DNA from: a bacterium | GTDB lineage: Bacteria; SZUA-182; DTGQ01 | Assembly: GCA_023512255.1 (NCBI GenBank) | Contig: JAILZY010000078.1 | Coordinates: forward strand, 1 to 16,004 | Reading direction: 5' to 3' | DNA length: 16,004 nt | In this document: positions 1,563 through 15,724 of the stretch, piece after piece | How positions within the stretch are numbered: the stretch's first letter is position 1 | Layout: every line of letters begins with the position of its first letter | Translations under genes and position numbers: made by a program | The notes under the pieces: model-generated | The model's input: only the letters and a program-made list of their open reading frames with translations | The model's database searches: none | Told to the model about the DNA's origin: nothing

Positions 1563-1668
1563 GTCTCCCATAAAAATTAGGAATCTTCAAAAATTAGAAA
1601 TCTTCAAAGTCTCCGTAATAAAAAAGTCTCCATAAAAACATTAAGAACATCAAAACATTAAGAACATC
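1563..1668. repeat. Cluster of three 17-nt tandem duplications after the propeller gene
   Basis: Three adjacent head-to-tail duplications share a 17-nt period. AAAAATTAGGAATCTTC (1572-1588) is followed by a copy with one mismatch (1589-1605). GTCTCCGTAATAAAAAA (1609-1625) is followed by a divergent copy beginning GTCTCCATAAAAA (1626-1642, 12 of 17 identical). AAAACATTAAGAACATC (1635-1651) is followed by a perfect copy (1652-1668). A further GTCTCCCATAAAAA at 1563-1576 resembles the second unit. The cluster begins 3 bp beyond the propeller stop codon. There are no spacers between units, so it is not a CRISPR array. Confidence 0.9.
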
Positions 1669-1671
1669 TCA

Positions 1672-4275
1672 TCACGGTATAAAATGATAGCAGATCGGCG
1701 GGGTCCAGGCCATGGCCCCATTTTTTTGCGTTACCTCGATAAAATAATGATAATCATCCTTCTTATCGATCGGAAGCCCTAGGTCTACAAAGGTAATATC
1801 AGCCTCTTTGCCTTTAATATTCCTTGAGCTGTAGATGCATTTGGCATTTCGAATAATATCCACCTGAGCAATATCATCGGTGCCAATGATTTTGGCTAGC
1901 ATCCTGGGGTAGCGATTGCGACTAGGGAATTTATCACCCATGGGATGGCCTTCCACAGTAAAGTCAAGGATGATCCAGTCTGTGGCCACATAATTGCGCT
2001 TTTTCTCCAAAGCCTCGGTAAAGGACTTGTCTGAAAAATCCTTAGCATAGACCGCGGTAATCACCGGCATTCCCTTAGGAATGGGCTTCTTTTGCAGAGA
2101 ATGCCCGGGAGCCCGCTTGTAGGGGCTTCTGCCCTTTACATAGAAGGAGATAAAATCTTTCTTGGTAGAATAGCGGGAAGTAGCCTTGTTCGCTTCCCAA
2201 AGAGAGTAGTTATCTGGGCTGAACCAGCCTGTGTGGCGAAAGCTATAATCCGAGATCCCCAGAAAGTCATACTGCTGATCATCCAGGGCATACTTGAAGG
2301 CATCGACTACGAAGCCATCCATAGCCATCCGGCCGCGGACATCATGTTGCTCGTGGAGGGTTCCCCAAAAAAGTTGATACTTCTCAAGCCCTAGGGTTGA
2401 CTCATAGCGCTTTTTAGGCACCGGAGTAAATTCAATATACGAGGCTTGATCAACAATCTTGGGCTGTCTTTCATCAAGCAAAAGGGCCATATGGTGAGGC
2501 GAGACTTTGTCCATAGTCAGGGTAGCCACACAGATACCGGCAGGCTCAAGATCGCGGGAGTCGCTCCGACGGCCGTCTCCGGCGTAGGTGATCCAAAGGT
2601 CCCCTTCCTGCTGGCCGGCGCAGGTCGATGAGGCATAGATATTGCGCCAGGTGGTTTGAGAAAACTCAATCGGAGCTGACCAGATGTGGCCGTTATAAAA
2701 CATCCCGTAAACCTTCCACACCTCCATGAGCTTATCATGAATGTAGAAGGGGATTTTGCCGATATAGTGATGGAAAAAGCACCACAGCCGGCCACTTGAG
2801 TCGATTTGAAGCCGCGGCAGATCAGAATACATCCTCATAGTTTCAGGAAGCTTGGCGTAGAAATCCTCAGCAGTGCGGTAAAATTTTTCTCCCCAATAGC
2901 ATACTAGACCAAGCTTTCGGGAATTGTAGCGTCCGCGTCTTCCCTCCATCGGGGTTTTATTGTAATTGATCTGGGTCTCAACAGCCTCAAATTTACTCAG
3001 CGAAATGGTCCGATCCTCTTCATCCTCGCCAAATCCCCAATTCTCTCCTGAGGTATCCCAGGCGATCCAGACCCGGCCAAAATCATCGCAGGCCACACTG
3101 GCATGAGCTACATAGTTATTCGTAGCTTCAACCTCAATTTCCGGCCACAGACGCTCGCTGCTGAACTTGCGAAGAAGAATGAGATGTTTTTTGTTCCGAT
3201 AGCTGTCCCAGGCCAGATAGACGTTCCCCTGCCGATCAACGCTGATCGCCGGCTGCCAGTCATTGCCCTGATGATCACTCACCCGAATAATCGCCGACCA
3301 CCGTCCCTGGTCATAGTATTTCATGAAAATATCAGCCTGCCCGAATTGAAAGCTCTGCCAACAGACCCACAACCGATTGTTGTCATCTACAAAGATCTGC
3401 TGATCGGTGTCCGGAGCTGGGTGCTCGGTGATCCGACTAGTCGAAGACCATTTCCCATCTTTATAATGTCGGACATAGATGTCCCAGTTGTCACTGACCC
3501 GGCCAGCCCAGCAAACCCACAAGCCGCCTTCTTTATCTCCAGCCAGAGAGGGCTGCAAATAGCAGCCTCCATCATCAATCACCGTCTCCTCTCCCCAGCT
3601 TTGGCCATCATACTTTCGGATCACCAGCCGCTCTTTGCCCTTGCTGTAGTTAGCCCAAGCGGCCCAGACATTTTCCATACTGTCTTTAGCGATCGCAGGA
3701 TAGTTGTTCATCTGCTGCCCTTTGGCCTTGAATAGAAAAGAGCGAGGCATAAGCTGAAGCTTAATATTTCCATCCAGCCGCTCCAGGGAAGTGCCGAATT
3801 TCAGATCAGCCATAGTGAAGGAAAAAACACCAGCTTCAGTGGTTATGAATACCCTGGCCGAGGGAGGCGTAATTAAATCGAGGATAATCCCCTTGGCTAG
3901 GCGTTCCTCAAAATACTCCCGTGGCGAGATCTTCCCCAGCTCATCGGCGATTTCACTGCCACGCAAGCGGTCGATACGGCACTTCCATTGCCGCTCCTTG
4001 ACCTTGAGACTATCCTGATCAGTAAAATTGATACTCTGAATGTCTTCGATCCGCCCACTATTCACTTCTGCCTTCCCATCCCAAATCAGGGGCTTTGGCC
4101 CTCGGATTCCAAACATGATCTGGACCGTCCAGGGCAGACTTTTTTCTTTCTCCAATTGCTGGTCAAGGCTCATAGCCTGGGGGGGGAAGAAGAGAAGCAT
4201 AGCCGTCAGAGAGAAAGTCGCGGCAATGAAAACAGCCCGACCGAGACCGAGTCTTGACATAAGGGTTTTAGCCAT
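1672..4275 (-). CDS. Secreted beta-propeller protein with degenerate PHP/DUF3604-like C-terminus
   Basis: This 867-aa protein starts with a signal peptide (hydrophobic residues about 12-35). Residues 190-590 contain five or six propeller-type repeats of about 50-60 residues, with the pattern Pro-x-hydrophobic, Asp, Gly-Asn/Arg-hydrophobic-Trp-hydrophobic-Ala/Cys-Trp, then Trp-Ser. Examples are NVWAAW 202-207, GLWVCW 251-256, RLWVCW 301-306, NVYLAW 351-356, RVWIAW 401-406 and RLWCFF 496-501. Residues 633-867 resemble the edges of PHP/DUF3604-type hydrolases: FWGTLH 636-641, FLGISDY 671-677, and a C-terminal sandwich ending AMAWTPPI 854-861. The usual HxH is HEQH (641-644), the usual TDH is SDY, and the middle of the catalytic domain looks shortened to about 70 residues, so it is probably not an active metal hydrolase. 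AAGGAGG lies about 8 nt upstream of the ATG. The role is unknown; ligand binding at the cell surface is a guess. Confidence 0.85.
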   Translation of the reverse strand: MAKTLMSRLGLGRAVFIAATFSLTAMLLFFPPQAMSLDQQLEKEKSLPWTVQIMFGIRGPKPLIWDGKAEVNSGRIEDIQSINFTDQDSLKVKERQWKCRIDRLRGSEIADELGKISPREYFEERLAKGIILDLITPPSARVFITTEAGVFSFTMADLKFGTSLERLDGNIKLQLMPRSFLFKAKGQQMNNYPAIAKDSMENVWAAWANYSKGKERLVIRKYDGQSWGEETVIDDGGCYLQPSLAGDKEGGLWVCWAGRVSDNWDIYVRHYKDGKWSSTSRITEHPAPDTDQQIFVDDNNRLWVCWQSFQFGQADIFMKYYDQGRWSAIIRVSDHQGNDWQPAISVDRQGNVYLAWDSYRNKKHLILLRKFSSERLWPEIEVEATNNYVAHASVACDDFGRVWIAWDTSGENWGFGEDEEDRTISLSKFEAVETQINYNKTPMEGRRGRYNSRKLGLVCYWGEKFYRTAEDFYAKLPETMRMYSDLPRLQIDSSGRLWCFFHHYIGKIPFYIHDKLMEVWKVYGMFYNGHIWSAPIEFSQTTWRNIYASSTCAGQQEGDLWITYAGDGRRSDSRDLEPAGICVATLTMDKVSPHHMALLLDERQPKIVDQASYIEFTPVPKKRYESTLGLEKYQLFWGTLHEQHDVRGRMAMDGFVVDAFKYALDDQQYDFLGISDYSFRHTGWFSPDNYSLWEANKATSRYSTKKDFISFYVKGRSPYKRAPGHSLQKKPIPKGMPVITAVYAKDFSDKSFTEALEKKRNYVATDWIILDFTVEGHPMGDKFPSRNRYPRMLAKIIGTDDIAQVDIIRNAKCIYSSRNIKGKEADITFVDLGLPIDKKDDYHYFIEVTQKNGAMAWTPPICYHFIP

Positions 4276-4283
4276 GAAAAAGC

Positions 4284-4320
4284 CTCCTTATCTAAAGCAC
4301 TCCTTATCTAATCTAAAGCA
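4284..4320. repeat. Tandem duplication containing the Shine-Dalgarno of the propeller gene
   Basis: On the plus strand CTCCTTATCTAAAGCA (4284-4299) is followed by CTCCTTATCTAATCTAAAGCA (4300-4320), the same unit with an extra internal 5-nt reiteration. Read on the minus strand, each unit carries an AAGGAG ribosome-binding site, so the leader has two Shine-Dalgarno copies 16 nt apart. The proximal one is correctly spaced from the ATG at 4275. Confidence 0.8.
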
Positions 4321-4424
4321 TGACTTATCTTTCACCATGATCTTTCTGTTTTTTGCGAAAGGGGGTAGCTCTCCGAGGGTAGCCTAAAGATTATCCGCAG
4401 TTTAAGGGCACGACAATTAATCGT

Positions 4425-4454
4425 TTGGGATTTCACAGGAGATTTTGCTATAAT
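4425..4454 (+). promoter_or_regulatory. Sigma-70 promoter of lptE-holA
   Basis: TTGGGA (4425-4430) is separated by 18 nt from a perfect TATAAT (4449-4454), which is preceded by TGC, an extended -10. The predicted transcription start is near 4461, about 60 nt before the ATG chosen for lptE. This argues against the upstream TTG start at 4425, which lies within the -35 box. Confidence 0.7.
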
Positions 4455-4520
4455 CTCTTTTCGGCAAATAAGGTGTCGCAAATCAGGGAAAAACGCTCTT
4501 TAGAAAAAAAGGCCAAAATC

Positions 4521-5120
4521 ATGATCACTAATAAAATGGATTGCAAGATTCCCTCTGTGGTCCGAATTTTTACCCCGCTTCGTCTCCCCCTGCTGAGCCT
4601 GGCCGCAGCTGTGACCATAACCTTAAGCAGCAGCGGATGCGGATATCGGATCATGGGCCAATACCCGCTCTGGCCTGAGGGAATCCGCAAGGTTTATGTT
4701 GAGACCATCCGCAATCAGACTGCCGAGCCTGAGTTGGATAAGATTATGACCGAGGCTCTGATCCAGGAGATGTGGCATCAGGACGCAGTCCAGATCGTAA
4801 ACCGTCCCCAAGCCCAGGCCATTTTGGGTGGAGTCATTACTGGATATCAGGCCGATCAGCCTATCTCCTTTGACCGGGATCGGAATATCCGGCAGATGCG
4901 CCTAACCATTCATCTTGACCTGCAGCTTGAAGAGGTGTCAACCAAAAAAATCCTCTGGCAGGAAAAAGGGCTTACTATCCAGGAAGAGTACCAGTTTTTT
5001 AAGGATGATTTGGCTACCACTCGAAGCCGAAAGAGACAGGCCCAGCAGAAGGCGGCTCAGGATCTGGCCAGAAGGCTGCTGGACGGGCTCTCGATGGGAG
5101 GCATCCGCCCGTGCAGTTAA
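4521..5120 (+). CDS. lptE: LPS-assembly lipoprotein LptE
   Basis: LptE plugs the LptD beta-barrel in the outer membrane and helps insert lipopolysaccharide into the outer leaflet. From the ATG at 4521 the protein is 199 aa: a basic N-terminus, a hydrophobic stretch (about 18-35), then SSSGC with the likely lipidated cysteine at residue 40. The mature part has the family pattern: CGYR just after the Cys, the VYVETIRNQTAEPELD segment, an alternating beta region and a helical C-terminus. The frame is open back to a TTG at 4425, but that lies in the promoter -35 box; ATG 4521 has AAAGG 8 nt upstream and gives a normal lipoprotein signal. The stop overlaps the holA GTG by 10 bp. lptE next to holA is a widespread arrangement, as in enterobacteria, which supports both calls. 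Confidence 0.85.
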   Translation: MITNKMDCKIPSVVRIFTPLRLPLLSLAAAVTITLSSSGCGYRIMGQYPLWPEGIRKVYVETIRNQTAEPELDKIMTEALIQEMWHQDAVQIVNRPQAQAILGGVITGYQADQPISFDRDRNIRQMRLTIHLDLQLEEVSTKKILWQEKGLTIQEEYQFFKDDLATTRSRKRQAQQKAAQDLARRLLDGLSMGGIRPCS

Positions 5121-6190
5121 AATTCGAAGAGTTGATAAGAAGGCTGAGTGGGGGAAAGGTAGATCATCTTTATCTTTTTACTGCTGGAGAATCGTATTTC
5201 CTCAAGCAGGCAGTAAACCTGGTCCGAAGAGAGTGCCTCGGCCAAGAAGAGAGGGAGAATTTTCACTTCCTCTCCTGTGAGGATCTTGACTTTGACAGCC
5301 TCCTGGCTCTGATCCAAACGCTTCCCTTGGTGGGAAGACAGAGGCTGATTGTACTTTCCGGGCTTGAGAAAATCAAAAGTAGGGATGCTGAGCTTATGCT
5401 GCGGCTGCTGTCAAAAAAATACCCTTCGCCCCCTCCGGCGCGGCTTATCCTGGTAGCTGAAGGGCTTGATGGGCAAAGGAGGCTGGATGAGTTTTTTAAA
5501 ACCAAGCTCGGTGGATTTCTCAAGAAAGAGGCCGTAGCGGTCCATTTTTACCGGCTATTTGAGAATGAGGTTTCTGGCTGGATCGTGCGAAAGGTCAAAG
5601 AGAGCGGAAAGACCATCTCCCCCACCCTGGCTCAGGTCATAGCCGAGATGTTAGGCAATGATCCTTCGCGGATCGAAAGTGAGCTGGAGAAGGTTTATCT
5701 TTACATGGGCCGAGAGAAGCAGATCAGCCAGCAGCACCTCTCAGTTATCTGCGGACAGGCACGGATATTTTCTATCTTTGAGCTAGTCGAAAGAGTGGCT
5801 GAGGGAAACGTTGAGTTTTCCCTAAAGATTTTGGATAAGCTGATGGAAGAGGGGGAAAGCCATCTTGTTATTTTAGCTATGATAAGCCGACAATTTCGCC
5901 AGATCTACCGGGCCAAGGCGCTACTTCGGCAGGGGGTGAGGCAAGCTGACTTAGCCCGCGCTCTTGGCATAGCTCCGCTTTTTGCCCGCAAGATAGCCGA
6001 GCAGGCCGCATTTTTCAGCTTTGAGAGGCTGCAGGCACTGTTTATTAAGTTCTTTGAGACCGACCTTGCTCTAAAATCAAGCGGCTGCCAGCCAAGGCTT
6101 ATCCTAGAGAAGCTGATTATTGACATCTGTGGCCAGAATCATCTTTGGGGTTTTGATGAGCTGAGTTTGGGTGAGAGCAAGGGCAGATAG
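5111..6190 (+). CDS. holA: DNA polymerase III subunit delta (HolA)
   Basis: The delta subunit of the clamp loader opens the DnaN sliding clamp and loads it on primed DNA. The 359-aa product has the usual family length and order: an N-terminal AAA-like domain beginning LYLFTAGESYFLKQAV (20-35) with no functional Walker A, as normal for delta; a middle helical segment with NDPSRIESELEKVYLY (183-198), a HolA hallmark; and a C-terminal collar domain with FELVERVAEGN (223-233) and ISRQFRQIYRAKALL (258-272). Translation starts at GTG 5111, inside the lptE stop region, with GGGAGG about 10 nt upstream, so the two genes are probably translationally coupled. The tail ends in a short GATAGATAGG-type low-complexity stretch, after which the DNA becomes AT-rich and non-coding. 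Confidence 0.93.
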   Translation: MQLKFEELIRRLSGGKVDHLYLFTAGESYFLKQAVNLVRRECLGQEERENFHFLSCEDLDFDSLLALIQTLPLVGRQRLIVLSGLEKIKSRDAELMLRLLSKKYPSPPPARLILVAEGLDGQRRLDEFFKTKLGGFLKKEAVAVHFYRLFENEVSGWIVRKVKESGKTISPTLAQVIAEMLGNDPSRIESELEKVYLYMGREKQISQQHLSVICGQARIFSIFELVERVAEGNVEFSLKILDKLMEEGESHLVILAMISRQFRQIYRAKALLRQGVRQADLARALGIAPLFARKIAEQAAFFSFERLQALFIKFFETDLALKSSGCQPRLILEKLIIDICGQNHLWGFDELSLGESKGR

Positions 6191-6300
6191 ATAGGGTAGG
6201 TAGATATAATAAGAGCAGATGATGAGTATTTTGTTTCACAGTCCTTTAATTAAAATGCATTTTTATAAACAAAATGTTAGATCAAAGATTAGTTGACATA

Positions 6301-6314
6301 TGAAAAATTTTTCA
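6301..6314. promoter_or_regulatory. Perfect palindrome, candidate activator site
   Basis: TGAAAAATTTTTCA is a perfect 14-bp dyad centred about 145 bp upstream of the sigma-54-type promoter. That is a normal distance for an enhancer bound by a sigma-54 activator. Binding by any protein is inferred from position and symmetry only. Confidence 0.35.
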
Positions 6315-6442
6315 CAAAAATGCTCGCCTCTTTAGTTAAAATTGCACATCCTGATTTTAGACAATTTCGACTTTTGCTTTATAACTTATTGAAAATATAT
6401 ATAATTTAAACTTAAATCAATTTTGGGACAATAAAAATTTTA

Positions 6443-6458
6443 TGGCATGATTTATGCA
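6443..6458 (+). promoter_or_regulatory. Sigma-54 (-24/-12) type promoter
   Basis: TGGCATGATTTATGCA matches the consensus TGGCACGNNNNTTGCW at all fixed positions but two, and has the required GG-N10-GC spacing (GG 6444-6445, GC 6456-6457). Transcription would start near 6469, leaving a leader of about 207 nt before the ATG at 6677. The near-palindrome TACTCTTTAGAGTA directly after the -12 element overlaps the expected start site. Confidence 0.6.
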
Positions 6459-6499
6459 TACTCTTTAGAGTAGATTAAATCGTAACTAAAATTCCAAAC

Positions 6500-6533
6500 C
6501 AGATTCCAAGATCAAGCAGATTTCAAGATCAAG
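6500..6533. repeat. 17-nt tandem duplication in the leader
   Basis: CAGATTCCAAGATCAAG (6500-6516) is followed directly by CAGATTTCAAGATCAAG (6517-6533), one mismatch in 17. It lies in the predicted untranslated leader of the downstream secreted protein gene. Confidence 0.9.
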
Positions 6534-6676
6534 ATTCTTCCTCAAGAAGTAACCTCAAGGATCCAGAACCAAGATACATACCTAGTCTCAATATAGTTCT
6601 CAATAAGTTATATCTTATGTCTAGGTCTTCTGTTTGAAGTTTTAATTTTAAAAATCGCGAAAGGAGGTTTTAACCT

Positions 6677-7174
6677 ATGGAAAAAGAATTGAAAACCATA
6701 CGGCCAAATATCTTAATCCTTGGTATAATTGGTGTAATATTATTATCCATATTTATACTGCCAACCAGACCGGCAACTGCCCAGATTGTGCCCCCCTATC
6801 CTCCTGTATTTTTCCCCTTTGAAGGCTTTCCGCTCCTGCCGCCTCCTGGGGTCGCCCCGGTCTTTTATGGCTATTTGCCCTACAGCTATCCGGCTACCAG
6901 AAGCGCGTCAGTACTAAGCTCGACAAGTTCTCTGCTTTTGTCGACCCTTCTTACCCCGACCACCACAACCACCGCCACTCCGGTAATTGGAGTCAGCACG
7001 GCTATAACCCTGGCCACCCTGGGAGGATCTGGGCTTTCAACCACCACGCTGGCTACCCTGGCCGCGACCCCGGTTCCTACGACAGTTACTACCACGCCAA
7101 CGATCGGCACAACCACAGCCTTGCTGCTGAGTGGAGGAGTATCAACCTCAACCCTGCTTCTCTTAGGAATATAA
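6677..7174 (+). CDS. Small secreted Thr/Ser/Leu-rich protein of unknown function
   Basis: I do not recognise a family. The 165-aa product has a signal peptide: basic N-terminus, hydrophobic core at about 11-29, and a likely signal peptidase I site after ATA at 33-35. Next comes a Pro/Phe/Tyr-rich segment (37-72, with PPYPPVFFPFEGFPLLPPPG). Residues 75-165 consist almost only of Thr, Ser, Ala, Leu, Val, Gly, Ile and Pro, with runs such as TPTTTTTATP, TLATLGGSGLSTTTLATL and TVTTTPTIGTTTALLL; there is one Arg and no Lys, Asp, Glu, Cys or His there. This suggests a beta-rich, possibly aggregating or surface-coating polymer. AAGGAGG lies 9 nt before the ATG, so translation should be strong. The gene stands alone behind a sigma-54-type promoter and is followed by a terminator-like hairpin. 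Confidence 0.75.
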   Translation: MEKELKTIRPNILILGIIGVILLSIFILPTRPATAQIVPPYPPVFFPFEGFPLLPPPGVAPVFYGYLPYSYPATRSASVLSSTSSLLLSTLLTPTTTTTATPVIGVSTAITLATLGGSGLSTTTLATLAATPVPTTVTTTPTIGTTTALLLSGGVSTSTLLLLGI

Positions 7175-7248
7175 GGTTAGAAATCTAATATCTGCTAACT
7201 TGAGTGTCTGCCTCCACCACCTAGGGGGCACCTTAAGATCCGCCAGCT

Positions 7249-7300
7249 AGCCGGTCGGATGAGTAAATGAATATGAGGGCCTCCTCCGATCTGGCTTTTT
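7249..7300 (+). terminator. Candidate rho-independent terminator
   Basis: AGCCGGTCGGA (7249-7259) can pair with TCCGATCTGGCT (7285-7296) with one bulge and one G-U pair; a run of five Ts (7296-7300) overlaps the stem end. The 25-nt loop is longer than usual. It lies 75 nt after the stop of the Thr-rich protein gene. Confidence 0.5.
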
Positions 7301-7306
7301 GAAGCC

Positions 7307-7386
7307 GCAGGATGACCAGGAATTTGGCAACACAGCCCTGAATATTCTGGGATTAACCCAGGGTAGCTCTCTCCTGGTCATCCTGC
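7307..7386. repeat. 80-bp inverted repeat with 15-bp perfect arms
   Basis: GCAGGATGACCAGGA (7307-7321) and TCCTGGTCATCCTGC (7372-7386) are perfect reverse complements. Inside, CTGGG (7347-7351) pairs with CCCAG (7357-7361), or alternatively CCCTG (7336-7340) with CAGGG (7359-7363). The element sits between convergent transcription units, 40 bp beyond the DUF4276 stop. It has no T-tract, so it may be an RNA-stabilising stem, a REP-like or small inverted-repeat element, or a rho-assisted end. Confidence 0.75.
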
Positions 7387-7425
7387 CATCGGTTATTTCT
7401 GAATCACCTGCTGTGTTGGGTGGGG

Positions 7426-8049
7426 TTACTGCCTTATTAAGTCATTAAGTCCCTTCACGAAGGTCTGGAAACTTTTTGAACGGTTCCGCTCAGGGTTCAT
7501 GTGCTGTGAAATAAGATGAGCAGCCTCAATCTTAGGCAGCCCAGTAGGATAATATCCGGCCTTTTTTAAGATGCGCTCGAGTTTTTCCCACGTTCCACCC
7601 CTAATGTTGTCAGGATCTTGACATGGCAATTTATTGGGCACTTTCGGATAGGCTTTATTAATAGCCTCGATATCTCCCAAAAACCAGGCCTCTAATTCTT
7701 CAATGGCTAGGCGGTTCACAATCTGGAAACTACCCTGGCCGCAGCAGGTAGATTTGGTAACAAATTTAGCGCCTGTAGCGATATCTTCTAACTCTCTTTT
7801 TAGCTCCTGACATTCGTCGCGATCTTTATCGATCAATACCACAATCCGATAGTTATCAGGCAGCCATAGACGATACCCTCTCAATCTTCTAGGCAATTTA
7901 GACAAAAGATCTTTTTTGCCATTATGAGGATGGATATCAAAGGTTATCCCCTTGGGAAGTAATTTGGGAAGTAAATTTTTCAGCGCTGCTTCGGCAGATT
8001 GCTCTTCGACCAGAAATTCAACGTGCTCAACAGATATAACCTGCTGCAT
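7426..8049 (-). CDS. DUF4276 Toprim-like protein, partner of the adjacent ATPase
   Basis: The 207-aa product begins with the family signature VEFLVEEQSAEAAL (10-23), which supplies the first Toprim-type glutamates. It then has VVLIDKDRDE (70-79), the DxDxD-like acidic motif (Asp74, 76, 78), and AIEELEAWFLGDIEAI (115-130), a third conserved acidic helix. From family knowledge, DUF4276 proteins resemble the Toprim domains of OLD-type and RloB-like nucleases and often follow an AAA ATPase gene. Here the gene begins 31 bp after the ATPase stop on the same strand, as expected for a two-gene operon. The likely role is the effector nuclease of an ATPase-Toprim module acting in phage or plasmid defence; activity and target are inferred. 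The ribosome-binding site is weak (AGGGCTGAGAGC just before ATG). Confidence 0.8.
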   Translation of the reverse strand: MQQVISVEHVEFLVEEQSAEAALKNLLPKLLPKGITFDIHPHNGKKDLLSKLPRRLRGYRLWLPDNYRIVVLIDKDRDECQELKRELEDIATGAKFVTKSTCCGQGSFQIVNRLAIEELEAWFLGDIEAINKAYPKVPNKLPCQDPDNIRGGTWEKLERILKKAGYYPTGLPKIEAAHLISQHMNPERNRSKSFQTFVKGLNDLIRQ

Positions 8050-8080
8050 AGCTCTCAGCCCTTGCCGTATCAGCCCCTTG

Positions 8081-9427
8081 TCAGCGTGGATGCTTTGATT
8101 TCTTACTTTGATTTTTTAATTGATGTGGGCTAGCCAGATACCCCTTATCCTTGCCGTGTGGGTGCTTTCCACAAACCCTTAAGCTACCTGCCTCAGTCAG
8201 AGGATCGCCAGCATCGAAATGTCCTTCCATCCAAAGATATCCTAATTGCTCTCCAGTATCGACAAATTCTTTTATCCCCTTAATATAAATGGATTGTCGG
8301 GCATTTGTAAATCCTCTCTCATCGCGATAGAGCACCCAGAGTTCTTCAGGACGTAATCCATTTACAAAAAATGGCGAATGGGTAGTAATCAAAAGTTGAG
8401 ATCGGGCCGCGGCGAGTCTGCATTCTTCAGCTAGTTCAGGCAAAAGTCTGGGATGGAGATGATTTTCCGGCTCCTCAATACCAATAAGAGGTGGCGGCTC
8501 TGGATCGTAGAGGAGAGTAAGATAGGCCAACATCTTTAATGTGCCATCTGAGGCAAATTTTGCCAATACCGGCCTCTCAAAAGGAGCGTCCTTGATTTGC
8601 AAAAGAAGCCTGCCATCCTGCATAGGCTCAGCTTCCACACTCTCCAGTCGAGGAACTCTTTGGGAAAGACACTGGATGATCCTATCTAATCGCTCCTTAT
8701 GCTGCTCTCTCAAGTATTGAATAACATTGGGAAGGTTATCTCCGGTCGATGATAGCCGCTCCTGCGGACCTGCTTCAGGGAGAGAACGGGTTGTGTCTGC
8801 GCTTAGATATGAGAGATACCAGCCGGTGATAAACCGGCGGAGAGCACTGACTCTAGGGTGTCTGCTGAATTGTCCTAGAGTATTGACTGCCAAATGTTCA
8901 GAAGAATTTAATTCTTCCTCGATGCGAGCATTCACATTCTGCTCATCGGGGAATTCTCCAGAGATAACAAGGCCCTTGCCCTTTTTAAAATCTAAAAACC
9001 GGAACGGTTTCCCACGCTTGCCTCGTCTCCATGACAGCCATTCCTCAGCCACAAACGGCCCCCTAGGGTTTTCATCAATTGCCAGATGGTAGGTAATAAG
9101 GGGCAGGTCAGGTCTTTCACGATATTTTAATTCAATAACTATCGGCCCATTCTGATCTCGTGTTCGTAATTCTTTAAATCTGCCGCGTTTGTCCCAAGCG
9201 CGGCGAAGGCCATAGGTAAAGCATTCGGAAAGGAAGGCAAAAACATCAAAAATGGTAGATTTGCCGCTTCCATTAGGCCCAAGAAAAACCGTGAGCGGTG
9301 TTATCTTTTTTAACTCAAGGTCACGCAATGCTCGATAATTTTTTACCCGCAGATATTCTATCCTAGGGATAGATTGTTTGCTTGTCTTAAGATCGCCGGC
9401 GTAGGTGTTCATCTGGAGTTTATCCAT
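8081..9427 (-). CDS. AAA/OLD-like ABC-type ATPase paired with DUF4276
   Basis: The 448-aa protein has an N-terminal [18 protein letters not shown] segment (22-39) followed by Walker [10 protein letters not shown] (50-58), a long helical insert, a signature-like [10 protein letters not shown] (291-300), Walker B with catalytic glutamates [13 protein letters not shown] (314-326), and the H-switch [10 protein letters not shown] (345-354). This is the AAA_21/AAA_15 architecture of RecF/SMC-like ATPases that act as sensors with Toprim nucleases in OLD and PARIS-type systems. Proteins of this type, as I recall them, tend to end near the motif [14 protein letters not shown] (397-410). The remaining 38 residues, rich in Lys, His, Ser and Gly, look like an extension made by local duplication: KHPH (421-424) and KHPR (445-448) lie in segments 72 nt apart. 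No clear Shine-Dalgarno precedes the ATG at 9427 or the next ATG at codon 6. Confidence 0.85.
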
Positions 9428-9432
9428 GAATT

Positions 9433-9466
9433 ATTGATTATCTAGTGTCATTGGTTATCTTAATCA
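9433..9466. repeat. Divergent 17-nt tandem duplication upstream of the ATPase gene
   Basis: ATTGATTATCTAGTGTC (9433-9449) is followed by ATTGGTTATCTTAATCA (9450-9466). The first 11 bases match at 10 positions, with less similarity beyond. It occupies the ATPase leader. A second short reiteration in the same 273-bp spacer is CATAATTTATTGTAT (9608-9622) followed by CATATTTATTGTAT (9623-9636). The spacer has no convincing ORF or strong terminator. Confidence 0.6.
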
Positions 9467-9700
9467 CCCTGCTTGTTCTATTTCCTGTTTTGTTTCATAA
9501 TCTATGCTTTCGCACTTTTTCTCCGAACCCTTGATTTTGCTGGATTTGCTATTAGAGGTAACTTTCAAGGATTTCAAGGCGTTAAGAAATTTCTGCAAAA
9601 GTGTAGTCATAATTTATTGTATCATATTTATTGTATAATGTGTCATCACAAATGTCGAGGAGATGATTACCAGCAAGGATAAATAAGCCTACTCGCCTAA

Positions 9701-12700
9701 TTATTCCCCTCCTATCCCAGCCGCCGCGACCTCCTGCTCAAGGAGGCGAAAAAAATCCTGGATCTGCCGCACCAGGGCTTCAGCACTTTGGGGGCTGGCT
9801 ACAGTCATGACTAGATCTGCAGGGGGAGAGAGCCGGAAAATCCCACCTTCTTTTTTTATAAGCTGGATCAGCTCTTGCGGTGAAACCTTTGTCCGCTCGT
9901 CGAAGGTGAAGCTGATTCGATTCCCCAGCCGGTGGATGGCTTTCACTTTCCACCTCTGGCAGAGGAGGCGAAGTTGCATCTGCTGGAAGAATAACCTGGC
10001 TGCCTCTGGCATGGCGCCGTATCGGTCCTCAACCTCCTCTTTCCAGGCGAGGAGAGCCTGTTCATCTTCAAGCAGGGAAGCCCGCTTGTAGAGGTTTAAC
10101 CGCTGATTGGTATCTGGGACATAAAAGTCGGGCAGATAGGCTTCGACCTGAAGATCAATGGTGATATCGAGCGGCTGCTCTTGTGGCTGACCCTGCATTT
10201 CCTGGATGGCCTGACGGATCAGATCGCAGTAGAGGTCAAAGCCTACGGCGGCAATCTGGCCGTGCTGTTCAGCGCCAAGGAGGTTGCCTGCTCCTCTAAT
10301 CTCCATATCTCTGGCTGCCAGGCGAAACCCTGAGCCCAGCTCACTCAGCTCCTGAATAGCCACCATGCGTTTGCGGGCCTCATCGCTCAGGGCATCTTCG
10401 GCCGGAATGATCAAGTAGGCATAGGCCCTTCGGCTTGAGCGGCCAACCCGTCCTCGCAACTGGTATAGCTGGGCCAGGCCATAGTGATGAGCCTGGTTGA
10501 TAATAATGGTGTTAGCGGATGGAATATCTAGTCCTGATTCAATAATGGTGGTACAAACCAGAAGATCATATTTATGCTGGACGAAATCCAGCATGATCCT
10601 CTCAAGCTCCCGCTCCTGCATCTGACCATGAGCGATTGCGATTTTGGCCGATGGAACAAGGCCTTGGACATAATTGGCTATCTTTTCGATATTCTCAACC
10701 TGATTATGAACGAAAAATACCTGCCCATCACGCTCCAATTCTCGGATAATGGCCTGGGTGATGATCTCGGGATCAAAGTTGATGATATGGGTCTGGATAG
10801 CCATCCGGTCAGCAGGAGGAGTGTCAATGATACTAAGATCACGGACCCCGCTAAGAGCCATGTTCAGTGTCCTGGGGATGGGCGTGGCCGTTAGGGTTAG
10901 GACATCGACCGAGTTTCGCAGGGCTTTTAGCCGCTCCTTGTGAGCTACGCCAAAGCGCTGCTCTTCATCAATAATCACCAGCCCGAGGTCTCGAAACTCA
11001 ACGTCTTTCTGCAGCAGGCGATGAGTGCCGATGACCACATCCACTGTTCCGTCTCGAAGCCCCTTAATGGTCTCCATCTGCTGTTTGCGGGTACAAAATC
11101 GGCTGAGCATCTCGACCCTTACTGGATAGGGGGCAAAGCGCTGAGAAAATTTCTGGAAATGCTGCTCAACCAGGATTGTAGTAGGAGCAACCAGGGCGAC
11201 CTGCTTATTGCCGGTGATAGCTTTGAACGCAGCCCGCAGGGCCACTTCGGTCTTACCATAGCCTACATCTCCACAGACTAGCCTATCCATAGGCCTTGGC
11301 TCTTCCATGTCTCGCTTGACCTCCTGAATGGCTCTGAGCTGATCTGGAGTTTCTTCATATTCAAACGAGGCTTCAAACTCCCGCTGCCAAGGAGTGTCGG
11401 GAGGAGCGGCAAAGCCGATGGCGATTGAGCGAGCTGCATAGAGCTTTAGCAAATCCTCGGCCATTTTTTTTACCGAGGCCTTTACTCTAGCCTTGGTTTT
11501 GCTCCAGGTAGCGCCACCAAGTTTATCCAATTTGGGAACAATCCCACCTGCACCTGAGTATTTCTGAACCATGTTCAGTTTTTCTGGCGGTATGTAGAGC
11601 TTGTCCCCATCGAGGTATTCTACCAGCATGAAGTCTTTGCGGGTATCCCCAATAGTCAATTTTTTGAGTCCCAGATAGCGGCCAATGCCATGTTCGATGT
11701 GGACTACATAGTCTCCCTCTTTTAGATCTCGAAAGGTAGCCAGGGCAGCCGCCGGACGATGGCTCTTTAAAGCGGTCGGGATTTTTTTCCGCTCGCCGAA
11801 AATCTCCTGATCTGCAATCAGGACCAAAGACAAGCCCGGAAGGAAAAATCCAGAGGATAGCTCGCCCAGACAGATCAGGGGGGGCAAAACCCTTGCCTCA
11901 TCATCCTCCTCCCCTGCCGACAGAAGGGGGATCGGCTCTTTATCCAGGCGTCGCACTCCAAGCTCATATTCACGGAATAACTCCTCAAGACGCTCAGCCT
12001 GCCCCTCACTTCCGCAAACGAGGATAATGAGCTGATTTTTCCGATGCCAGCTCTTGATCTCTGAACTCAGGCTCTCAAGATAGGATCGGTCTCGGCCCCA
12101 AATCTTTGATTTTCCAACCAGACCACTGACCGATTTTACCTCAAAGGAGACCGTATCAGGCGCTGTTGGGGTTGATTCCTCAGCAGCTTCGGGCAAGGCT
12201 ACTGTGGTCTTCAGTGCTCGGAGGGAAAAAAGTTGCCTAGCGGGAAAGTATTCCTGCTGAATTTCGCTCCACAGCCGATACCCTTCCCTGGGATGAGGGT
12301 AAGGGATATTTTGGCGATGGACCTGCTGATATCGCCGCTCTAGTTCATTATAAAAATCCTCAGCAGCCCGCTGCACAGCCGCAGGCTCATATAGCAGGAT
12401 ATGACCGTCAGCAGGCAAATACTTAAATAGGGTATCTGTGCGGGAGTAAAGATAGGGCAGATAGTGCACCAGACCCGGAAAAGGGCTTTCCTGATCGAGT
12501 TGGGCCTGAAGCAATTCGATCTTGGACTGATACAGATATGATCCGCCAAACTCCTGCTTAAGTCTTGAGGAGAGATGATGGCAGCTCTCTCGGTTTAGAA
12601 TAGCCTCGGTTACCGGCAGGATAATTACCTCTTCGAGGAATTTTTCAGACCTCTGGGTTGAAGGATTGAATTGCCGGATCGATTCTATAGTATCACCGAA

Positions 12701-13300
12701 AAATTCAAGGCGCACTGGCGCCCCATGCCCTGGGGGGAAAAGGTCAACTACCCCACCCCGAACACTATAATCACCGGGAGACTCAACCAGGTCTACAGCC
12801 CGGTATCCTCCTCGCACCAGGAGAGCGATGATCTCCTCCCGCTCGATAGTTTCTCCAGCACCGAAAAAGCCTACCGTACTGTTAAACACCCTTTTGGGCA
12901 TCAGGTTTTGCATCGCGGCCTGGATCGGAGCCACCACCATAGCCAATGGGTCATTGAGCAAGGCATAGAGTGATTCCATTCGGCGACCCACCACCTCGGG
13001 CAGGGGCGAGAGTGCCTCATAGGGGAGAATTTCCCAGGTGGGAAATAGATAAGTTGAGATTGAGGCTGTCTGCGGATGGAGCAGGCGGATAAAAAATTGC
13101 AGATGCTCATAGATCTCTTCAGCCTGCTCGGCTGATGGGGCCAAGATAAGAAAGCTTCCAGATAGCTTCCCCCGCATAAGGGAGATTAGAAACTCCTTGC
13201 TTCTTTCCCACAATCCCTCAAGATGAATATGCCGCTCTCCTCTCTCCAGGGCTTTCAAAACTGGAGCGAGGAAGGCATCTATGCTGCTTCGGTTAATCAT
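9701..13300 (-). CDS. mfd: Transcription-repair coupling factor Mfd
   Basis: Mfd displaces RNA polymerase stalled at DNA lesions and recruits UvrA for nucleotide excision repair. The 1199-aa length is normal. Residues 1-330 form the UvrB-homology module with a degenerate ATPase (FPTWEILPYEALSP at 86-99 and SPGDYSVRGGVVDLFP at 174-189). Residues about 524-600 are the RNA polymerase interaction domain (LKEGDYVVHIEHGIGRYLGL). The RecG-like translocase follows: Walker A GDVGYGKTE (677-685), APTTILVEQH (705-714), DEEQRFG (778-784) and TATPIPRT (804-811). Helicase lobe two contains the RGRVGRSSRRAYAYL stretch, and the C-terminal TRCF domain closes the protein. It lies 20 bp after rfaE2, apparently in the same operon. 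Only AAGG, very close to the ATG, serves as a ribosome-binding site. Confidence 0.97.
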   Translation of the reverse strand: MINRSSIDAFLAPVLKALERGERHIHLEGLWERSKEFLISLMRGKLSGSFLILAPSAEQAEEIYEHLQFFIRLLHPQTASISTYLFPTWEILPYEALSPLPEVVGRRMESLYALLNDPLAMVVAPIQAAMQNLMPKRVFNSTVGFFGAGETIEREEIIALLVRGGYRAVDLVESPGDYSVRGGVVDLFPPGHGAPVRLEFFGDTIESIRQFNPSTQRSEKFLEEVIILPVTEAILNRESCHHLSSRLKQEFGGSYLYQSKIELLQAQLDQESPFPGLVHYLPYLYSRTDTLFKYLPADGHILLYEPAAVQRAAEDFYNELERRYQQVHRQNIPYPHPREGYRLWSEIQQEYFPARQLFSLRALKTTVALPEAAEESTPTAPDTVSFEVKSVSGLVGKSKIWGRDRSYLESLSSEIKSWHRKNQLIILVCGSEGQAERLEELFREYELGVRRLDKEPIPLLSAGEEDDEARVLPPLICLGELSSGFFLPGLSLVLIADQEIFGERKKIPTALKSHRPAAALATFRDLKEGDYVVHIEHGIGRYLGLKKLTIGDTRKDFMLVEYLDGDKLYIPPEKLNMVQKYSGAGGIVPKLDKLGGATWSKTKARVKASVKKMAEDLLKLYAARSIAIGFAAPPDTPWQREFEASFEYEETPDQLRAIQEVKRDMEEPRPMDRLVCGDVGYGKTEVALRAAFKAITGNKQVALVAPTTILVEQHFQKFSQRFAPYPVRVEMLSRFCTRKQQMETIKGLRDGTVDVVIGTHRLLQKDVEFRDLGLVIIDEEQRFGVAHKERLKALRNSVDVLTLTATPIPRTLNMALSGVRDLSIIDTPPADRMAIQTHIINFDPEIITQAIIRELERDGQVFFVHNQVENIEKIANYVQGLVPSAKIAIAHGQMQERELERIMLDFVQHKYDLLVCTTIIESGLDIPSANTIIINQAHHYGLAQLYQLRGRVGRSSRRAYAYLIIPAEDALSDEARKRMVAIQELSELGSGFRLAARDMEIRGAGNLLGAEQHGQIAAVGFDLYCDLIRQAIQEMQGQPQEQPLDITIDLQVEAYLPDFYVPDTNQRLNLYKRASLLEDEQALLAWKEEVEDRYGAMPEAARLFFQQMQLRLLCQRWKVKAIHRLGNRISFTFDERTKVSPQELIQLIKKEGGIFRLSPPADLVMTVASPQSAEALVRQIQDFFRLLEQEVAAAGIGGE

Positions 13301-13320
13301 TACCTTAAAAAAAAGGCGAC

Positions 13321-13821
13321 CTAGCCATTGCCTCCAAAACGCGTTCGGATGAGATTGATAATTGCCGTAGTTGATACCCCAGGGACAAGAGGGATGCGAA
13401 CAACCCTGCCTCCTTCTGCCTCAACCACCTCACGGCCAATAATCTGATCATACCCCCAATCGGCTCCTTTGACCAAGATGTCCGGCTGCACGAGGCGAAT
13501 AAGTCCTAAGGGGTCAGGCTCATCAAAAATGACCACCAGGTCCACGCATTCGAGGGCAGCCAGAAGCTCGGCCCGCTGCTCCTGGGGAATAATCGGCCGC
13601 ATCTGTCCTTTAATGGCTCGGATAGACCGATCACTGTTTAAGCCGATCATAAGACAATCACCACACGATCTCGCTTGCCAAAGGTAGCGGGTATGCCCTA
13701 TGTGAAGAAGATCAAAACAACCATTAGTGAAAACTATCTTCTCGCCCCTCCTTTTGCGCTCGATGACAAGATCTTTAATTTTGTCTATTGGTTGAATCTT
13801 CAACCTAGGATCATTTAGCAC
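13321..13821 (-). CDS. rfaE2: D-glycero-beta-D-manno-heptose 1-phosphate adenylyltransferase
   Basis: This enzyme transfers AMP from ATP to heptose 1-phosphate, making ADP-heptose for the LPS inner core or other heptosylated glycans. The 166-aa protein is the stand-alone second half of HldE. It has the nucleotidyltransferase signature TNGCFDLLHIGHTRYL (32-47) with HIGH at 40-43, LNSDRSIRAIKG (61-72) followed by RPI (75-77), VKGADW (117-122), and the C-terminal GVSTTAIINLI (148-158) typical of RfaE2. No kinase half (RfaE1) is in the window, so it must lie elsewhere. Translation begins at GTG 13821 with GAGGAG about 5 nt upstream. An overlapping ATG in another frame is not used. It sits between ugd and mfd. 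Confidence 0.95.
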   Translation of the reverse strand: MLNDPRLKIQPIDKIKDLVIERKRRGEKIVFTNGCFDLLHIGHTRYLWQARSCGDCLMIGLNSDRSIRAIKGQMRPIIPQEQRAELLAALECVDLVVIFDEPDPLGLIRLVQPDILVKGADWGYDQIIGREVVEAEGGRVVRIPLVPGVSTTAIINLIRTRFGGNG

Positions 13822-13848
13822 CTCAACTCCTCGCTTTCCCCATTTTTG

Positions 13849-13971
13849 GGCCGTCCGATGCCATAGTAATAATCCATAGTAATAGTAGTAAATTTCTTTG
13901 CCTTACGGCTAGTAAGGCGGCTAGTTATAAATTTCTTCTTATGGCCGTCCGATGCCATAGTAGATAAATCC
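13849..13971. repeat. Duplicated 3' end of ugd between ugd and rfaE2
   Basis: GGCCGTCCGATGCCATAGTA occurs at 13849-13868 and again at 13943-13962, offset 94 bp; weaker similarity extends both to about 28 bp. The 13943 copy is the real ugd terminus (codons for YYGIGRP). The other lies downstream of the ugd stop. Between them are more short reiterations: CCATAGTAAT (13861, 13874), TAAATTTCTT (13889, 13928), CGGCTAGT (13906, 13918), and a 6-bp hairpin CCTTAC/GTAAGG (13901-13917). Confidence 0.85.
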
Positions 13972-15255
13972 CCTCTCCCGCATAAGTTTGGGATCATAGA
14001 GGTTTCGGCCATCGAAAATAACCGGGCTGCGCATAAGTTGCTTAATTCGATCAAAGTTAGGACGGCGAAATTCATTCCATTCAGTGACCACAATCAAGGC
14101 ATCGGCCCCTTCAAGGCAATCGTAGTTGCGGGAGCAGAGCTCTATTCTATCCTTGAAAATCTCTCTAGCTCGCCTCATGGCCGCAGGATCATAAGCTCGA
14201 ATACTGGCTCCCTCAGCCAGCAGATGATTGATGATATTCAAAGAGGCTGCCTCCCGCATATCGTCGGTCTGGGATTTAAAGGCTAGGCCCCAGACGGCCA
14301 GAAGCTTTCCCTTGACTCCCTGCTGTTGATCGAATTTTCTAAAATGATCACACACCTTGTGCCCGAGAAGGTCTTTCTGCCGGTTATTGACCTTCTCCAC
14401 AGCTTTCAGAATTTCCATAGAATAGTTGTGCTTTTCCGCAGTCCGAATCATGGCTTTCACATCCTTAGGAAAGCATGATCCACCATAGCCAACTCCTGGG
14501 AAAAGGAAGGAGTGGCCGATTCGGGAATCTGTGCTGATTCCCAGTCGTACCATATCGACATCGGCTCCTACCCGCTCGCACAGGTTGGCCAGCTCATTCA
14601 TAAAGGAAATCCGGGTGGCCAGCATGGCATTGGCGGCATATTTGGTCATTTCTGCAGATCTAATATCCATGACAATAATCGGGTTGCCGGTCCGAACAAA
14701 GGGGGCATAGAGTTCCTTCATGATTTCGGCTACTTTAGGATTATCGCAGCCGATAATGACCCGGTCTGGTTTCATGAAGTCGGCCACAGCCGCGCCCTCC
14801 TTCAAAAATTCAGGATTTGAGACCACATCAAACTCTACCGAGGTCTCCTGGGCTATAGTCTGCCGTACTAGGTCAGCTGTGCCAACTGGTACAGTGCTTT
14901 TATCCACAATTATCTTATAGGAGTCCATAATCTGACCGATAGATTTGGCCACCGCCAAAACATGCTGCAAATCTGCCGATCCATCTTCATCCGGTGGGGT
15001 GCCCACAGCAATGATATTTATTAAGGATTCCTTGACCCCCTCGGCCAGATCGGTAGTAAATCGAAGGCGTCCCTCCCGACCATTTCGCCGCACTAGATCC
15101 TCAAGGCCAGGTTCATAGATAGGGATCTTGCCCTGCTTGAGAATCTCAATCTTTTCCTTATCTATATCTACGCAAATTACATCGCTGCCATTTTCAGCAA
15201 AGCAGGCCCCGGTTACCAGCCCTACATAGCCGGTTCCGATAACACAGATATTCAT
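13939..15255 (-). CDS. ugd: UDP-glucose 6-dehydrogenase
   Basis: Ugd oxidises UDP-glucose to UDP-glucuronate with two NAD+, a precursor for capsule, exopolysaccharide and LPS sugars. The 438-aa protein is full length. The N-terminal Rossmann fold opens [16 protein letters not shown] (1-16, GxGxxG at 7-12) with CVDID (28-32). TVPVGTA (121-127) and NPEFLKEG (147-154) follow; [14 protein letters not shown] (252-265) holds the catalytic Cys261, and [15 protein letters not shown] (322-336) lies in the C-terminal domain. UDP-N-acetylmannosamine dehydrogenases are related, but the FLKEG and YGGSCFPKD forms favour Ugd. Its ATG overlaps the TGA of the upstream small frame (ATGA), and AAGGAG is 9-10 nt before the ATG. 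The gene ends at GIGRP, after which its tail is reiterated in the spacer. Confidence 0.95.
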
Positions 15256-15500
15256 ATCATGGATCTCCTTCCCTGGATTATTCTGATTCTGATACTTTTT
15301 CCCAGCTCAAACCTACACACTTCTGGTCCTGATTTTGGCTCACATAGGCTATGGTGCGAGGGGATAATTCCAGCACCTTCAAGATATCTTTCTATTCTCT
15401 CAAGGCTTTCAAAAATCATCCGAGATTTGTCAATGACTTCACAGCAAATATCTTCCAATTGCTCTGGCAGGCAGACATGGGCTATCTTTTTTGGCGGCAA
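15252..15500 (-). CDS. Small hypothetical ORF coupled to ugd, probably start-damaged
   Basis: No family recognised. From TTG 15500 the frame gives 82 aa with a Glu/Arg/Ile-rich helical middle ([29 protein letters not shown], shown here as residues 13-41) and four to five Cys. Its TGA overlaps the ugd ATG by 4 bp (ATGA), the arrangement of translationally coupled genes. The frame is open further upstream without ATG or GTG to an in-frame TAG at 15579-15581. An ATG at 15548-15550 with GGGG upstream starts the same coding sequence, but a 17-nt tandem duplication (15515-15548) throws it out of frame after six residues into a TAG. Deleting one unit gives a clean 93-aa ORF. It may be a recent pseudogene, or the TTG may be used; it may also be only an open leader carrying the ugd ribosome-binding site. 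Confidence 0.4.
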
Positions 15501-15514
15501 TCTTGCCTCTAGCC

Positions 15515-15548
15515 ATAATTCTATATCATCAATAATTCTATATAATCC
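15515..15548. repeat. 17-nt tandem duplication that breaks the small ORF
   Basis: ATAATTCTATATCATCA (15515-15531) is followed by ATAATTCTATATAATCC (15532-15548), 15 of 17 identical. The period is not a multiple of three and separates the ATG at 15550 from the downstream frame. Confidence 0.85.
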
Positions 15549-15586
15549 ATGAACCCCAGTTCTTACATCACCAAAAGCCTAATCTC

Positions 15587-15620
15587 TGAGAGTTGGGCTG
15601 CTTTGAGAGTTGAGAAAAAT
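15587..15620. repeat. Divergent 17-nt tandem duplication in the ugd-operon leader
   Basis: CTCTGAGAGTTG (15584-15595) recurs as CTTTGAGAGTTG (15601-15612), an offset of 17 nt with one mismatch in 12. Nearby, AAAGAAGCT is repeated at a 12-nt offset (about 15635-15656). Confidence 0.6.
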
Positions 15621-15724
15621 TTCTACTCCTTTAAAGAAGCTTATAAAGAAGCTAAGGCTTAGCTCAGTGCTTTTTTCGACCCATTTTATTGAAAGCTTGG
15701 CTCTTCTTCCCCTGTGCATATCGC

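Follow-up and report, generated by a model that had tools for sequence, protein, structure and literature searches.

Short tandem duplications in the genome of an uncultured SZUA-182 bacterium carry a same-strand edge signature resembling topoisomerase I sites

The window analysed here is the whole of contig C80 (JAILZY010000078.1, assembly GCA_023512255.1; 16,004 nucleotides, nt), part of the draft genome of an uncultured bacterium (3.83 Mb in 172 contigs, 96.6% complete), and it contains a series of short tandem duplications. Throughout this genome, such duplications occur in an excess that is specific to it and far beyond chance, and on one strand the two ends of the duplicated unit resemble positions of the type IA topoisomerase TopA. 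TopA cleaves one DNA strand, remains linked through its tyrosine to the downstream 5' end and frees the 3'-OH. Judged from this sequence pattern, the duplications are probably scars left by TopA acting directly, with breakage and rejoining that would be unusually error-prone in this lineage.

The genome-wide analysis covered 1.56 Mb of the 3.83 Mb (41%), with earlier counts from 618 kb, and used simple gene calls based on open reading frames and dinucleotide shuffles as the control. Comparison genomes were a genus-mate (G001), two family members (G002 and G003) and a handful of members of the order and class, together with 1.39 Mb of sequence sampled across 79 diverse bacteria. Noncoding DNA of this genome totalling 91 kb contained 254 tandem duplications, versus 1 after shuffling. 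Using one method throughout, whole-unit tandem duplications of 10–25 nt amounted to 129.9 per 100 kb of noncoding DNA in this genome, compared with 30.1 in G001, 22.3 in G002, 9.6 in G003–G008 pooled and 9.2 in the 79 diverse bacteria, none of which had a locus with at least three such duplications in noncoding DNA.

The copies are arranged head-to-tail, and the majority are identical or one mismatch apart. For noncoding duplications of 13–16 nt, 58 had no mismatch, 63 had one and 9 had two; since about half of these copies are still perfect, the duplication process appears recent or ongoing. Inside genes, in-frame duplications outnumbered those in the other two frames (114:17:15). Alignment with G001 gave 32 insertions of at least 8 nt in this genome versus 13 gaps. 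A comparison with a relative had been suggested in the earlier note on the window, and it agreed with duplication in this genome: the three whole-unit duplications lying in DNA alignable with G001 each coincide with an insertion here, most cleanly for the two in genes. As separate observations, 19 of 40 tandem repeats in the noncoding DNA of G001 have units of 7 and 8 nt rather than 10–24 nt, perhaps from a different repeat process, and degenerate tandem arrays of about 25–33 nt at L013:91-195 and L013:2654-2790 apparently grew by successive duplication rounds.

Edges were studied in duplications whose match length equals the offset, after identical copies had been taken out. At these unambiguous edges, the base four positions 5' of the unit is enriched in C and, as the mirror image of this, the base four positions 3' of it is enriched in G. 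When all bases at positions -1 to -8 were scanned, C at -4 gave a gain of 73.1 nats and the runner-up 21.7. The marks are not distributed independently between the two edges. In 172 cases, C(-4) or its mirror G was present at both edges in 22, at one edge in 102 and at neither in 48, and a hand calculation gives about 31/84/57 for independent edges and about 22/102/48 for one marked strand per event. Once the cases were oriented by the marked edge, the unit end on the same strand had C at -4 in 46% versus 21%. The in-register match was 25–31% at -2, -3, -5 and -6 and 50% at -4, where all matches were C–C; since the match is raised only at -4 and is near background at the neighbouring positions, the signature is not eroded homology.

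With an equal number of parameters, a same-strand model fitted better than independent edges on opposite strands (73.1 versus 58.1 nats), also within the 13–16-nt class alone (57.8 versus 42.8 nats), where the signature is strongest. It is present separately in exact and in mismatched duplications, and in the noncoding and coding subsets. On held-out contigs, with the parameters fixed beforehand, the gain was 10.0 nats, a value reached in 0 of 2000 null simulations. The oriented edges, which carry C at -4 by construction, have T(-5) in 42%, G(-3) in 9%, T(-1) in 42% and A or T at the first unit base in 67%. These flanks resemble, as a preference and not a strict motif, the TCNTTA/T motif determined for E. 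coli TopA by Topo-Seq, where cleavage occurs four bases past the C (PMC9352719). Topoisomerase I and reverse gyrase are characterized by a preference for C at -4, and in E. coli the pocket that holds this base includes R169, R173 and Y177 (PMC7587558). The study of an E. coli topA mutator (PMC6954433) and a later review (PMC7587558) did not decide between direct action of TopA and an effect through supercoiling; the same-strand C(-4) footprint points to direct catalysis. Coupling to the transcribed strand was discarded, with the cut strand in genes being non-template in 18 cases versus template in 15 and no preference according to gene context.

The following route would account for these edges. 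TopA would cut one strand directly after CNNN, with the 5' end bound to its tyrosine and the 3'-OH free, and this 3' end would then be extended by roughly 10–24 nt, a step to which we give about even chances. Still holding the original 5' end, TopA would join the new 3' end to it, with a preference for ends having C at -4, possibly because that C occupies the enzyme's own pocket. Such rejoining would require no ligase, Ku or sequence homology. The resulting bulge of 10–24 nt would turn into a head-to-tail duplication at the following replication. Frame-breaking events in genes would be removed by selection, so that duplications would accumulate in spacers.

The genome scan found a single type IA topoisomerase gene, an intact and ordinary topA. 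In its product, the C-pocket residues R169, R173 and Y177 are conserved, and R168 and the active site are retained. A mutated TopA was rejected as the cause, the sole change at an otherwise invariant core position being one where E. coli departs as well. Loss of a repair gene was also rejected, since this genome, like G001, retains mutS, xseA, polA, recJ and RNase H genes. Hyperactivity of the lineage may stem from a past topA mutator allele that has since been lost, from a changed TopA partner or from altered supercoiling.

Several observations weigh against attributing the duplications to TopA. No convincing mutator lesion was found in the TopA of this genome, which differs from its relatives at one otherwise invariant core position only (PPSRF for PPPRF), where E. 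coli varies too (A). Only some 55% of donor edges and 47% of acceptor ends show the signature, which is absent from 9-nt repeats and weaker in those of 17–19 nt. Taken by itself, the donor signal fell from 0.59 in the first set to 0.42 in the held-out contigs, while the acceptor signal was stronger there. The relatives and the 79 other bacteria gave no C(-4) signal, with too few duplications there to judge generality. In addition, the species is represented by one draft metagenome assembly without reads, and the extension by a polymerase is a step that we infer.

Replication slippage between short pre-existing repeats is the origin that textbooks usually give for tandem repeats, and a slippage step had been offered in the earlier note. 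It would leave an overlap matching the repeat used. In 184 exact noncoding cases, the overlap beyond the unit was 0, 1, 2, 3 and 4 nt in 102, 46, 16, 9 and 3 cases, respectively, where random placement expects 98, 51, 21, 8 and 3. Since the overlaps equal chance, slippage is refuted for the bulk of the duplications, which are head-to-tail and independent of pre-existing repeats as in the topA-mutator type, and its probability is negligible. An assembly artefact of the metagenome bin, which a single draft assembly in 172 contigs might invite, is hardly credible either: the in-frame bias indicates that selection filtered real mutations, and neither this bias nor the many diverged copies nor the coincidence with insertions relative to G001 is expected from misassembly. 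The same note had also proposed fill-in of staggered double-strand ends. In its general form, staggered breaks or paired nicks on opposite strands, with TopA possibly making both nicks, leave 5' overhangs of variable length that are filled in and end-joined. This would account for whole-unit duplications without microhomology, and in unoriented cases a mirror-image C(-4) is indeed seen at the two outer edges. However, edges on opposite strands fitted 15 nats worse both overall and within the 13–16-nt class, the 22 of 172 cases marked at both edges fall below the 31 predicted by independence, and the search for Ku and LigD suggested in that note found neither Ku (PF02735) nor an ATP-dependent, LigD-type ligase (PF01068) in the genome, which makes this origin improbable.

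Two further readings keep a tyrosine-linked 5' end. Two TopA cuts at nearby CNNN sites on the same strand (or on the sister strand) could be followed by refilling of the gap and rejoining of the TopA-bound piece of 10–24 nt or of the sister's end. This is a variant of the TopA reading, with TopA still the agent, and the similar strength of C(-4) at donor and acceptor (0.55 and 0.47) is as expected for two genuine cleavage sites. Nevertheless, it requires two simultaneous events, and its reciprocal product is a deletion; the 13 gaps against 32 insertions relative to G001 are too few to judge whether matching deletions occurred. We consider the two-cut route possible but unlikely. Alternatively, another 5'-tyrosine enzyme with the same preference, such as Topo III, reverse gyrase or the relaxase or transposase of a mobile element, could make the cuts, and reverse gyrase does prefer C at -4 (PMC7587558). 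Against this, the C-pocket residues of Topo III differ (PMC7587558), and topA was the only type IA topoisomerase gene found, although a gene may be missing from an assembly that is 96.6% complete; the participation of such an enzyme seems quite improbable.

Direct action of TopA, the preferred reading, has its closest parallel in the E. coli topA R168C mutator (Bachar et al. 2019, PMC6954433), which yields tandem duplications of 2–19 bp that are likewise head-to-tail, tied to TopA and independent of existing repeats. That allele is a laboratory point mutant for which no motif match was found, whereas here the events number in the hundreds and are fixed in a natural genome, TopA is apparently wild-type, and C(-4) occurs on the same strand at both ends. 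The lengths here form a hump at 10–24 nt, with most below 20 (lengths from 9 nt up were examined). Since R168 and the active site are intact, the duplications are not classed with those of R168C but only as working alike. Topoisomerase II mutants (yeast top2-FY,RG and K720N; human TOP2A K743N) also convert a topoisomerase break into a de novo tandem duplication, but these are 2–4 nt long, set by the Top2 stagger, and need nonhomologous end joining (Lig4, Pol4) (PMC11477040), in contrast to the 10–24 nt, the same-strand edges and the lack of any Ku or ATP-dependent ligase found here. Yeast Top1, a type IB enzyme, is another type I topoisomerase that gives small indels, yet these are deletions of 2–5 nt at ribonucleotides in existing repeats, and its 3' link is the opposite end chemistry (PMC11477040). 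Joining of staggered ends by Ku–LigD and duplication from paired nicks likewise give whole-unit, homology-free products, but from cuts on opposite strands.

Within the window (Table 1), the earlier note had reported seven tandem duplications sharing a 17-nt period. Four of them are strong, with match counts above everything in the dinucleotide shuffles (0 at that score). Tandem Repeats Finder returned period-17 arrays at 1572, 1631 (covering 1635), 6500 and 15515 with scores of 59–69. The other three are weak; two are partial matches as counted, and the one at 9433/9450 has 10 of 17 matches rather than the 11 given. The positions at gene edges or in spacers were borne out for the listed repeats, and the units are indeed unrelated and hence form no dispersed repeat family. 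That the copies range from perfect to diverged fits the recent or ongoing process proposed there, and an origin by breaking and rejoining rather than from a repeat family also stands.

Table 1. Duplications in the window, with the paired positions and matches of the repeats listed in the earlier note
Positions	Feature	Paired positions	Matches	Setting	C at -4
1572-1608	17-nt tandem duplication	1572/1589	16/17	spacer	left edge and unit end, + strand
1606-1635	weak partial 17-nt duplication	1609/1626	12/17	overlaps neighbouring repeats	
1635-1668	perfect 17-nt tandem duplication	1635/1652	17/17	spacer	both: donor edge after CATA, unit end after CATC, + strand
4284-4311	tandem duplication, offset 16			just upstream of start of gene 1672-4275 (-)	
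4290-4330	duplication, offset 21			overlaps 4284-4311	
6500-6533	17-nt tandem duplication	6500/6517	16/17	spacer	
7952-7974	12-nt in-frame duplication			inside gene 7426-8049 (-)	left edge
8093-8118	13-nt duplication			near 3' end of gene 8081-9427 (-)	
9433-9466	claimed 17-nt repeat, unsupported	9433/9450	10/17		
9612-9636	14-nt duplication			spacer	left edge
13861-13884	13-nt duplication			spacer	
15515-15547	17-nt tandem duplication	15515/15532	15/17	spacer	
15587-15612	weak repeat at 17-nt offset	15587/15604	11/17		
15632-15653	12-nt duplication		10 exact	spacer	donor and unit end

The shared period itself did not survive. The window also contains duplications at offsets of 12, 13, 14, 16 and 21, and in the noncoding DNA of the 1.56 Mb, counting matching runs of at least the offset minus 3, the numbers were 50 at offset 10, 68 at 11, 49 at 12, 63 at 13, 47 at 14, 51 at 15, 46 at 16, 26 at 17, 26 at 18, 27 at 19, 15 at 20 and 18 at 21. 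The distribution is a broad hump over 10–24 nt with no peak at 17, in 618 kb and then in 1.56 Mb, and it rules out a fixed 17-nt period. Given this spread, the probability of four out of nine duplications at exactly 17 in a window is 0.0007, and at any one offset 0.08 per window. Since the genome holds about 240 windows of this size, each with a probability of about 8%, such clustering at one offset is expected many times. A literature search on bacterial 17-bp duplications found nothing relevant.

The gene content of the window is ordinary, with a multihaem cytochrome, LptE, DNA polymerase III delta, Mfd (by eye), UDP-glucose dehydrogenase and others. At 7426-9427 (-), an adjoining DUF4276 protein and AAA ATPase strongly match the PADLOC candidate anti-phage pair HEC-01 (E values of 2.3e-87 and 2.5e-170, respectively). 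The gene at 6677-7174 (+) encodes a secreted-looking, Thr/Pro-rich low-complexity protein of 165 amino acids with no Pfam match, and is preceded by a long AT-rich spacer bearing a 17-nt duplication. Elsewhere in the genome, a dispersed element containing GTTTATGGTTGTT has 27 copies in 1.56 Mb (L001:15246, L011:13511, L011:2212 and elsewhere). One short AT-rich double repeat (ATGTTGAAAAAATA..., at L002:16473, L006:34, L007:5606 and L014:34) forms the end of several contigs and probably marks the border of a mobile element that interrupted the assembly.

In broader terms, we lean slightly towards the view that a wild-type-like type IA topoisomerase makes tandem duplications de novo when it links the 5' end that it holds to a second 3' end of the same strand, and that in this lineage the process has run often enough to reshape intergenic DNA genome-wide and to add in-frame repeats to genes. 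The lineage would then be a natural case of a topoisomerase-linked mutational process that shows across a whole genome, with a bearing on the growth of spacers and of repeat-bearing proteins. The footprint bears on how new tandem repeats originate where none existed, and same-strand C(-4) is a sequence test applicable to any list of duplication mutations. If the reading is true, TopA would be recognizable by its C(-4) footprint as an origin of new tandem repeats across bacteria.

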